Assembly: GCF_017308015.1 (NCBI RefSeq)
Contig: NZ_JAFKFW010000002.1
Span: forward strand, 1 to 64,000
Length of the DNA: 64,000 nucleotides
Origin: Allobosea sp.
GTDB lineage: Bacteria > Pseudomonadota > Alphaproteobacteria > Rhizobiales > Beijerinckiaceae
Direction: 5' to 3'
Shown: in pieces, positions 51,538 to 53,812 of the stretch
How positions within the stretch are numbered: the stretch's first letter is position 1
Layout of the letters: each line of letters begins with the position of its first letter
Made by a program: the position numbers and the translations under genes
The notes under the pieces: generated by a model
The model's input: the letters and a program-made list of their open reading frames with translations, nothing else
Databases searched by the model: none
Told to the model about the DNA's origin: nothing

Positions 51538-52473
51538 TCAACCCTCCGGTAATCCCAGCATCAGGCGAATGTTCTGCACGGCGGCACCGGACGCTCCCTT
51601 GCCGAGATTGTCGAGCCGCGCGACCAGCACCGCCTGGCCCAGATCGTCCTGCCCGAACACCGTCAGCTCAAGCTTGTTGGTGTCGTTCAGCGCCTCCGGC
51701 TCGATCTTGCCGTTCCTGCCATCCTGCGGGAGGACGCTGACATAGGTCGAGCCGGCATAACGCTCGGCCAGCGCATGGTGGAGATCGGCGATGCCCGGCC
51801 GCCCCGGCAACGTGTCGAGATGCAGCGGCACCGAGACCAGCATGCCCTGCCGATAATTACCGACGGAGGGCACGAAGATCGGCCGCCGGGTCAACCGGGC
51901 ATAGGCCTGCAGCTCCGGCAGGTGCTTGTGACGCAGGCCTAGGCCGTAAAGCTCGAAGGCCGGCGCGACGCCGGTCTCGAAATCCTCGATCATCGACTTG
52001 CCGCCGCCGGAGTAGCCGGAGACGGCGTTGACGGTGACCGGATGGTCCTGCGCCATCAGCCCGGCATCAACGAGCGGGCGCAGCAGCGCGATGGCGCCGG
52101 TCGGGTAGCAGCCGGGATTGGCGACGCGGTCCGCCTTGGCGATCTTTTCGGCATGGCCCGGCTCCAGTTCGGCGAAGCCGTAGACCCAGCCCGGCGCCAC
52201 GCGATGGGCGGTCGCGGCATCGACGATCTTGGGCGCGTGGGCGCCGAGACCGTCGGCAAGCGCCACCGATTCCTTCGCGGCATCATCCGGCAGGCAGAGC
52301 ACGACGAGATCGACGCTCGCCATCATATCCTTGCGGGCTGCGGGGTCCTTGCGCTTGTCTGGATCGATGCTCTTGACCGCAACTTCGGGCACCACAGCGA
52401 GGCGCTCGCGGATACCGAGGCCGGTCGTGCCGGCCTCGCCGTCGATGAAGATGGTTTTCAGGTTCTGGCTCAT
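51538..52473 (-). CDS. argC: N-acetyl-gamma-glutamyl-phosphate reductase (type 2)
   Basis: ArgC reduces N-acetylglutamyl phosphate to the semialdehyde in arginine synthesis. The 311-residue protein has the N-terminal IFIDGEAGTTGLGIRERL, typical of the short type 2 ArgC, the catalytic cysteine C122 in ANPGCYPTGAIALL, VSGYSGGGKSM and the histidine region GLGLRHKHLPELQ. I start at 52473 (MSQNLKTIF), after GGGGGTCC. Its 5' region contains a short arginine-rich leader ORF (52576-52635) followed by a terminator hairpin (52524-52548), which together look like an attenuator. Confidence 0.95.
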   Translation of the reverse strand: MSQNLKTIFIDGEAGTTGLGIRERLAVVPEVAVKSIDPDKRKDPAARKDMMASVDLVVLCLPDDAAKESVALADGLGAHAPKIVDAATAHRVAPGWVYGFAELEPGHAEKIAKADRVANPGCYPTGAIALLRPLVDAGLMAQDHPVTVNAVSGYSGGGKSMIEDFETGVAPAFELYGLGLRHKHLPELQAYARLTRRPIFVPSVGNYRQGMLVSVPLHLDTLPGRPGIADLHHALAERYAGSTYVSVLPQDGRNGKIEPEALNDTNKLELTVFGQDDLGQAVLVARLDNLGKGASGAAVQNIRLMLGLPEG

Positions 52474-52523: not shown

Positions 52524-52548
52524 AAAAAAACCGCGCTTCGGGCGCGGT
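52524..52548 (-). terminator. Leader terminator (attenuator) of argC
   Basis: On the minus strand ACCGCGC-CCGAA-GCGCGGT is a 7-bp stem directly followed by seven T residues, 28 bases after the leader-peptide stop and about 50 bases before the argC ATG. A terminator placed between a promoter and the first structural gene is the hallmark of attenuation. GGCGCG at 52591-52586 could pair with CGCGCC at 52546-52541 of the stem and serve as an antiterminator. Confidence 0.75.
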
Positions 52549-52575
52549 CGCGGGCGTTCGGACGTCAGCCGAGCG

Positions 52576-52635
52576 TCATCGCGGGCGCGCCGGGGCGGCC
52601 TGGTCAGGGCGACGTCGGATGAAGCTCGTCATCAT
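52576..52635 (-). CDS. Putative arginine leader peptide of argC
   Basis: A 19-residue ORF reads MMTSFIRRRPDQAAPARPR and ends with TGA. Five of 19 residues are arginine, including three consecutive codons CGA-CGT-CGC. It begins right at the predicted transcription start, as known for the leaderless trpL of rhizobia, and is followed by a terminator hairpin before argC. This fits ribosome-mediated attenuation: stalling at arginine codons under starvation would favour read-through. The arginine run contains GACGTC (52611-52616), which is repeated just after the stop (52561-52566), so the two can pair. I know no described arginine attenuator of this type, and the ORF is too small to prove by sequence alone. 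Confidence 0.6.
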   Translation of the reverse strand: MMTSFIRRRPDQAAPARPR

Positions 52636-52642
52636 AGCCTCG

Positions 52643-52671
52643 TATATGTTCGCGCTTGGACCGGGTGTCAA
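52643..52671 (-). promoter_or_regulatory. Predicted promoter of the argC leader transcript
   Basis: On the minus strand TTGACA (52671-52666) is a perfect -35 hexamer. CATATA (52648-52643) is 17 bases downstream, or TATACG at 19 bases. Transcription would start close to the leader ATG at 52635. Confidence 0.55.
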
Positions 52672-52690
52672 TCAAAGCTTTGGAGCAGGC

Positions 52691-52792
52691 GTCATTCCCG
52701 GACAGAGCGAAGCGCAGATCCGAGCATCTCCTGCAGAAGGAGCGGCCCGCACCTCCCTGTCATGAGATACTCGGCCCTAGCCCGGGCATGAC
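52691..52792. repeat. Imperfect 100-bp inverted repeat, family B full copy
   Basis: The left arm begins GTCATTCCCGGAC and contains ATCCGAGCATCTC; the right arm contains GAGATACTCGG and ends GCCCGGGCATGAC. The arms are inverted copies of each other with mismatches. The left arm is related to copies at 43459 and 56830. The element sits between argC and speB. Confidence 0.6.
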
Positions 52793-52855: not shown

Positions 52856-53812
52856 TCAGTCGTCCCGCTTCAGCGCCAGCGCCTGAATGTGATGCTGGAC
52901 GATGGTCGAGGCCAGGATCGCGGTGATATCGGCATGGTCATAGGGCGGCGAGACCTCGACCACATCCATGCCGCGGATGTCGAGGTCGCGGAGCGCCCAG
53001 AGGATACGCAGCGCCTGATCTCCGGTGAAGCCTCCTGAGACCGGCGTACCCGTGCCCGGCGCGAAGGCGGGATCGAGCGCATCGATATCGAAGGTGAGAT
53101 AGGCAGCGCCCTCCCCGATCCGCTCGCGGATACGCCGCACCGTTCCGGCCACGCCAAGCTCCTGCGCCTCATAGGCGTCGAGGATGGCGATGCCGCAATC
53201 ACGCGGCGCGACGGTGCGGATGCCGACCTGGATCGAGCGCCCCACATCGATCAGCCCCTCGCGCACCGCCTCCAGCACGAAGCTGCCATGCCCAATGCCA
53301 CCCGGCCCGTCGTCCCACGTATCCTGATGGGCGTCGAACTGGAGCAGCGCCAGCCTGCCATGGCGGGCGACATGGGCCCGCAGCAGCGGCAGCGTGACGA
53401 AATGGTCGCCTCCGAGCGTGACGAGATGGGCGCCCGTGGCGAGGATCCCCGCGGCCTCTGCCTCGATCGCGCGAGCGCAGCCCTGAAGATCGCCGCGCGG
53501 CAGGGCGCAGTCGCCGTAATCGACGGCTGAAAGCCGAGCGAAGGGATCGATCCCCGACGGGTATTGCGGGTCACCGTCGAAGATCGCGCTGGCGCGACGG
53601 ATCGCCTGCGGACCGAAGCGGGCCCCCGGCCGGTTGGTCACGGAGAGATCGAACGGTACGCCCCAGATCGCGAGGTCGCAGCCCGCGACATCCTTGTCAT
53701 AGCGCCGGCGCATGAAGGAGAGCGCGCCGGCATAGGTCGGGTCGGCAGCGCCGCCGCGCCGGTCGCTGGTGAAAGCGTGGTCGATCGGCGGCTTGTCGAA
53801 GGCTTCGGTCAT
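52856..53812 (-). CDS. speB: Agmatinase/ureohydrolase family protein
   Basis: Ureohydrolases cleave guanidino groups to urea with a binuclear manganese centre. The 318-residue protein has the complete metal motifs TLGGDHF, QFDAHQDTW and FDIDALDPAFAPGTGTPVSGG, and GARFGPQAIR in the N-terminal half. These match agmatinase best, producing putrescine and urea from agmatine; guanidinobutyrase or related substrates are alternatives. It lies in an arginine-related neighbourhood with argC downstream, in the same direction. The ATG at 53812 is preferred. Confidence 0.88.
   Translation of the reverse strand: MTEAFDKPPIDHAFTSDRRGGAADPTYAGALSFMRRRYDKDVAGCDLAIWGVPFDLSVTNRPGARFGPQAIRRASAIFDGDPQYPSGIDPFARLSAVDYGDCALPRGDLQGCARAIEAEAAGILATGAHLVTLGGDHFVTLPLLRAHVARHGRLALLQFDAHQDTWDDGPGGIGHGSFVLEAVREGLIDVGRSIQVGIRTVAPRDCGIAILDAYEAQELGVAGTVRRIRERIGEGAAYLTFDIDALDPAFAPGTGTPVSGGFTGDQALRILWALRDLDIRGMDVVEVSPPYDHADITAILASTIVQHHIQALALKRDD

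Follow-up and report, generated by a model that had tools for sequence, protein, structure and literature searches.

A putative arginine-sensing attenuator with its leader ORF at the predicted transcript start lies upstream of argC in Bosea

Among repressor-controlled pathways, arginine synthesis with its repressor ArgR serves as the textbook case. Leader-peptide attenuation has been described for other amino acids, the classical attenuators being those of his, leu, thr, trp and phe, and T-boxes, another class of RNA element, bind tRNA directly and have no leader peptide. In Sinorhizobium meliloti, the RNA rnTrpL begins with the ATG of trpL, according to the accessible text of PMC7298713. For arginine itself, the accessible portion of PMC1262725 names T-boxes, its named attenuators being those for histidine, threonine and phenylalanine, and PMC12508126, to the extent of its accessible text, cites work by Vitreschak and colleagues in which attenuators were compared across proteobacteria. 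Two further systems involve arginine or arginine-related genes, as far as the accessible parts of the two papers go: in Salmonella, the uORF orf34 located before speF senses arginine by two consecutive Arg codons (PMC6386406), and upstream of carA(B) in Pseudomonas a leader peptide is described for P. aeruginosa and attenuation together with a short 5′ RNA is proposed for P. syringae (PMC4997734). Searching the open-licence literature by title and start of abstract, we found among the matches listed no leader-peptide attenuation of arginine synthesis genes.

Here, we describe a leader upstream of argC in a genome of the genus Bosea, located in a 64,000-nucleotide stretch of DNA (hereafter the window, meaning the whole stretch that was analysed). 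The argC gene (51538..52473, ATG at 52473), which encodes N-acetyl-gamma-glutamyl-phosphate reductase of the short type according to its profile match (TIGR01851), lies on the minus strand, as do all parts of the leader given below. An agmatinase gene (52856..53812) is found upstream on the same strand as argC and forms part of the context, outside the putative attenuator. A dispersed repeat of about 100 bases, with many copies in the window's own and in related genomes, occupies positions 52690-52792 and thus separates the argC promoter from the agmatinase gene.

The leader promoter comprises a –35 box TTGACA (52666..52671) and, 17 nt past it, a –10-like CATATA (52643..52648), which matches the sigma-70 consensus weakly and of which CATAT is invariant in 13/13 upstream regions selected by homology (see below). 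A stricter promoter scan of 2 kb returned no promoter and did not report CATATA. Going by the spacing, transcription would start at about 52636-52635, at or next to the ATG of the leader ORF MMTSFIRRRPDQAAPARPR* (52576..52635), which has 19 codons plus a stop (ATG at 52635, TGA at 52578-52576). Codons 7-9 are the presumed regulatory Arg codons CGA-CGT-CGC (52609..52617), which account for 3.1%, 9.7% and 58.1%, respectively, of Arg codon usage in 38 window ORFs. Behind the stop lies a predicted intrinsic terminator (52524..52549), composed of a GC-rich hairpin, GACCGCGC-CCGAA-GCGCGGTT, and seven T at 52530-52524. Of the eight stem pairs counted, one is G-T and the last uses two of these T; the firm stem has 6-7 pairs.

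The initial annotation of this DNA had listed a TTGACA, a 19-codon ORF carrying a run of three Arg codons, a GC-rich hairpin followed by seven T and then argC, and every one of these elements is present on the minus strand. Its remark that GGCGCG in the leader can pair with the terminator stem is equally accurate: this motif (52586..52591), a putative antiterminator arm judging from its sequence and its folding by ribosome state, is fully complementary to CGCGCC (52546-52541), which belongs to the terminator 5′ arm. The annotation had further pointed to a GACGTC in the Arg run that is repeated after the stop. Such a repeat does exist in the window but is not conserved, occurring only in the window and in one other genome (L002) among the 13 aligned; being confined to 2/13 genomes, it is therefore not a conserved part of the element, and we rejected it as a pairing arm. 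The conserved alternative pairing instead joins the Arg codons with the stop region. In the consensus fold, CGTCGC of Arg codons 8-9 (52614-52609) is matched with GCGATG at the leader stop codon (52577..52582), and six pairs between the Arg codons and the stop region are kept in 13/13 genomes; four of them show no change in any of the 13, and the other two are unchanged in 12.

We consider it very likely that the argC leader is a ribosome-mediated transcription attenuator sensing charged tRNA-Arg, a reading that draws on layout, conservation, target genes and modelled folding and from which ribosome stalling, termination and a response to arginine in cells would follow. When arginine is plentiful, the ribosome would reach the stop codon and cover GGCGCG, the CCGCGC/GCGCGG terminator would form and transcription would end before argC. 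When arginine is scarce, the ribosome would stall on CGA-CGT-CGC, leaving GGCGCG to pair with CGCGCC, so that the terminator would be blocked and argC transcribed. If the leader is not translated at all, the Arg codons could pair with the stop region, favouring the terminator. A promoter-ATG-Arg-codons-stop pattern matches the window once and none of 100 shuffles, although the pattern was derived from that very sequence, and in 2 kb one terminator is observed where 0.6 are expected by chance in the window genome. The weight of the argument rests on conservation and not on the single genome.

Conservation within the genus is extensive. A plain DNA homology search with a 601-base query retrieved 13 genomes of the genus, the window's own included. 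Their leaders are all 19 codons long, with RRR at codons 7-9 and ARPR as the last residues; in every case TTGACA lies 35-36 nt upstream of the ATG and the terminator is present. A promoter-to-stop pattern matched 54/67 genus genomes, with a leader of 19 codons and a TTGAC-ATG distance of 35-37 nt in all 54; terminator and argC follow the leader stop in 53 of these, the remaining one (G068) ending at a contig edge. The 13 genus genomes that the pattern missed are all matched by a covariance model (R1), each time before argC. Twelve of them are intact, with leaders of 18-30 codons, and TTGAC is still positioned 35-36 nt before the ATG in 13/13. In the thirteenth (G051; L286 1501-1591) the leader stop is lost and the terminator broken together, an instance of natural decay. 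Conservation of the ORF and its Arg codons in close relatives, the check that the initial annotation had asked for, is thus borne out in 13/13 genomes by homology and, for the element, in 67/67 genus genomes, with leader, terminator and argC complete in 65/67, cut by a contig end in one and decayed in one.

The leader peptide itself is conserved unevenly. Among 48 unique leaders, collected with a pattern in which promoter, CGACGTCG, stop and terminator are prescribed, codons 2-6 and 10-12 are variable; Ala at 13, 14 and 16 and Arg at 17 and 19 are constant, with one exception at codon 13. The C-terminal ARPR is thereby almost fixed in Bosea leaders. The distance from TTGAC to ATG is 35-39 nt in 41/41 diverse leaders, which lends support to the prediction, made from the sequences, that the transcript begins with the leader ATG or immediately beside it.

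We modelled the folding of 41 of 43 leaders (L284 and L285 were not included), computing the terminator probability for three states: the RNA masked as far as 12 nt beyond the first nucleotide of the stalled codon, masked beyond the stop, or not masked. On average, the probability is 0.99 with the ribosome at the stop, 0.41 with the ribosome stalled on the Arg codons and 0.68 with no ribosome; for the window leader, the corresponding values are 0.99, 0.26 and 0.98. The stalled value is below 0.5 in 24/41 leaders and at least 0.5 in 17/41. Shuffling the intervening sequence raises the stalled-state mean to 0.76 vs 0.41 (Wilcoxon 9e-7 for the 41 related sequences and 2e-4 for 27 representatives). 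For the window alone such controls are weak, as 12.5% of shuffles are equally low when stalled and 39% pair the terminator 5′ arm upstream as well. Exchanging terminators between lineages revealed no lineage-specific fit among these leaders (0.46 vs 0.50, p 0.5), and the swaps, being without effect, therefore lend no support to covariation. The terminator stem is almost invariant in the argC group, which leaves little room for the compensating changes that the initial annotation had asked to see: an alignment of 28 shows a two-sided change at 1/8 predicted stem pairs. The proposal of ribosome-mediated attenuation for arginine made in the initial annotation is supported, in that layout, target genes and modelled folding fit it.

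Within the order, the attenuator-like element is a minority trait. Short-type argC is detected at 1e-40 in 121/297 order genomes, and a clear leader with terminator is present in 5/69 upstream regions of short argC loci outside the genus (L059, L064, L070, L074 and L076). L079, with an ORF ending WRRRG and a terminator before argC, is doubtful. Of five sampled f50 genomes, four have kept TTGACA but lack leader and terminator, and the fifth (L059) retains all. Covariance model R1 gave many weak hits in the 297 order genomes; the best ones were read, and 18 genomes were confirmed, the window's own included. A selenocysteine tRNA gene lies near argC in one Rhizobiales genome (L074 3020-3110).

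A DNA pattern blind to genes, CGACGTCG-N50-80-CCGCGC-N3-9-GCGCGG-N-TTTT, was run over the genome contigs and returned 90 stretches. The full layout, which additionally requires an ORF of no more than 30 codons that contains RR and whose ATG follows TTGAC at a distance of 35-39 nt, is present in 55/90; of these, 52 precede short argC, one long argC and one argD, and one is at a locus edge. Among the remaining 35/90, two precede an arginine gene (L203, where the promoter is missing at the locus end, and L133) and one is at a locus edge, and 32 have neither the layout nor an arginine gene within 700 bases. Named carriers besides Bosea include Microvirga, an Enterovirga MAG, a Bradyrhizobium MAG and Hyphomicrobiaceae MAGs. 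Leaders of 16 codons, e.g. MNTISTSTRRRSLILR, precede a long-type argC (TIGR01850 in the one tested) in 11/12 sampled genomes of the g25 group. A leader precedes short argC in G323, G153, G189 and G118, and G340 has two separate Arg leaders, one before argC and one before argD. A second model (R2) was run against 385 class genomes and had five strong hits, one of them the window's own; the hit in G373 precedes argD.

Within the window's own genome, argC is the only strong model hit, at 78 vs 24 bits. Bit score alone cannot separate genuine from false hits, since three genuine g25 leaders and the decayed G051 score 34-37 bits, like false ones. A version of the pattern lacking the T-run matched 44 of the 297 order genomes, and among the listed matches only those in G323 and G340 were recognised as leaders. 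Weak model hits in the ribB region (L247) and at L250-L260, L287, L299 and L302 were read and found not to be this element. Those at L288-L293, in small-genome relatives, represent a terminator downstream of the gene preceding pyrH, a gene pair that we take to be tsf-pyrH, and not an Arg leader. In G290 (L272 1447-1544, minus strand), an Arg leader, MSPYAINRRRQFENPARARGR, with a terminator is located before a RidA-like gene, which is followed by an A9CJY8-like ACT-domain gene.

The argD leaders were approached from L133, a 7 kb contig of a Burkholderiales MAG whose taxonomic label could be wrong, on which a 37-codon leader starts 35 nt after TTGACG and precedes argD. A search of 398 phylum genomes with its ArgD yielded 32 matches at 1e-95, for each of which the upstream region was read. 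The layout, in which TTGAC or TTTAC is followed 35-38 nt further on by the ATG of an ORF containing RR, and then by a hairpin before argD, is present at 20/32 loci, distributed over genus g41 (9/9, with weak T-tails), family f259 (5/9), f231 (4/4, three of them with RR only and long leaders), f264 (one) and f228 (one). Eleven of the 32 regions have no part of the layout. L374 has an RR ORF and a terminator hairpin and no –35 box at the usual place, and was excluded from the count. The stem sequences are unlike those of the argC leaders, the modelled terminator probability stays at or above 0.89 upon stalling in 17/19 leaders (L133 and L374 included), and terminator swaps gave 0.65 vs 0.57 (p 0.13). 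For the argD leaders, the layout is clear; the switch, as modelled, is not.

Three of the argD leaders coincide with a catalogued RNA. The Rfam family RF02884 (BcKCsr7) covers the Arg-run leader and the terminator before argD in L347, L349 and L350 and is absent at L345 and L346, so that 3/5 Burkholderia-like argD loci, a label taken from the Rfam family name, are matched at gathering score. The RF02884 consensus contains AUG and an Arg codon run, and the family reportedly goes back to a study of Burkholderia cenocepacia KC-01. In Bosea itself, argD (L312, L315-L344) is preceded by a different conserved Arg-rich uORF, MRMTARREVRSWVRR-like, which was read in 26/30 loci, the motif not being located in the other four; its hairpin lies upstream of the uORF, no terminator is found downstream, and the region is matched in 58/67 genus genomes.

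How far could the argC leader be explained otherwise? That the interval from the agmatinase gene to argC simply holds an ordinary terminator and promoter, along with an ORF that arose by chance, is hardly credible: Arg codons and hairpins are indeed frequent in GC-rich DNA, and the terminator is not above chance in the window genome, but the promoter sits upstream of the terminator, and ORF, Arg codons and spacing are preserved across families and before different arginine genes. We also regard an arrest peptide as very improbable. In such a scheme, the nascent RRR...ARxR itself would stall the ribosome in response to free arginine, in place of codons awaiting charged tRNA, and the nearly fixed C-terminus in Bosea together with the recurrence of ARxR-like ends in other families is what would be expected of it. 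The C-terminal leader codons, however, share sequence with the proposed antiterminator arm, and this could account for their conservation. Beyond the Arg run, moreover, the groups do not have the peptide in common, the g25 leaders ending in LILR or ILIQR and the Burkholderia-like ones in PLP or PRG, and in a layout of this kind a ribosome that stalls at high arginine would act in the wrong direction.

Action of the terminated leader RNA and/or the peptide mainly in trans, in the manner of rnTrpL/peTrpL of S. meliloti and with the cis switch being secondary, is compatible with the attenuator reading and somewhat less far-fetched, yet still unlikely as the main function. The plan with the leader at the 5′ end is the same as in trpL (PMC7298713, accessible text), and the argD leaders of three Burkholderia-like genomes match an sRNA family; the strict link of the layout to arginine genes, by contrast, points to cis control.

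ArgR (PF01316) was found in none of 61 genomes (37 of the genus and 24 others of the order), in a search whose controls were positive in 9/14 cases, 8 of them above the cut-off. An arginine attenuator, if true, would explain how argC is adjusted in Bosea, where no ArgR was found. We lean towards the broader view that Arg attenuators with a leader ORF at the 5′ end form a widespread and overlooked class in Pseudomonadota, placed before argC of both types or argD, that they take the place of ArgR in Bosea if not more widely, and that one of them gives rise, on termination, to BcKCsr7. What appears new from the genomes surveyed is the extent of the plan: it recurs across several families, ahead of argC or argD, one carrier being a betaproteobacterium by its label, and no ArgR turned up where it was sought. 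The putative attenuator provides testable targets, argC and argD, in several families, and it offers a cis function for an Rfam sRNA.

Compared with described systems, the argC leader seems to apply a familiar type of switch to arginine, for which no such case came up among the matches listed from the open-licence literature. With the classical attenuators it shares the run of cognate codons and the alternative of terminator and antiterminator, and it differs in the amino acid concerned; no classical attenuator family of Rfam reaches its gathering score over the window or 12 further Arg-leader loci, and the five Rfam matches over the argC leader up to E 10 are all far below gathering scores. 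BcKCsr7 is catalogued as an sRNA (Burkholderia sRNA 7) and has no match over the Bosea argC leader. Arginine T-boxes have in common with it that arginine genes are controlled at the RNA level (PMC1262725, accessible text). The orf34-speF system differs in serving putrescine synthesis and in working through Rho, RNase G and ribosome-site access, its authors having found no Rho-independent terminator, as stated in the accessible text of PMC6386406. The carAB operon of Pseudomonas is arginine-related, but its attenuation is attributed to pyrimidines, and an Arg codon run is not described in the accessible part of PMC4997734. The trpL attenuator of S. meliloti has in common with the argC leader a leader ORF whose ATG would coincide with the transcript 5′ end (predicted here), cognate codons, a terminator and a biosynthetic gene downstream (PMC7298713, accessible text). 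The Bosea element is read from sequence and differs in carrying arginine instead of tryptophan codons, in its sequence and in its argC/argD target. Together with trpL, it probably makes two cases in which a leader ORF opens directly at the first base of its transcript, which makes trans roles of the released leader RNA or peptide testable.
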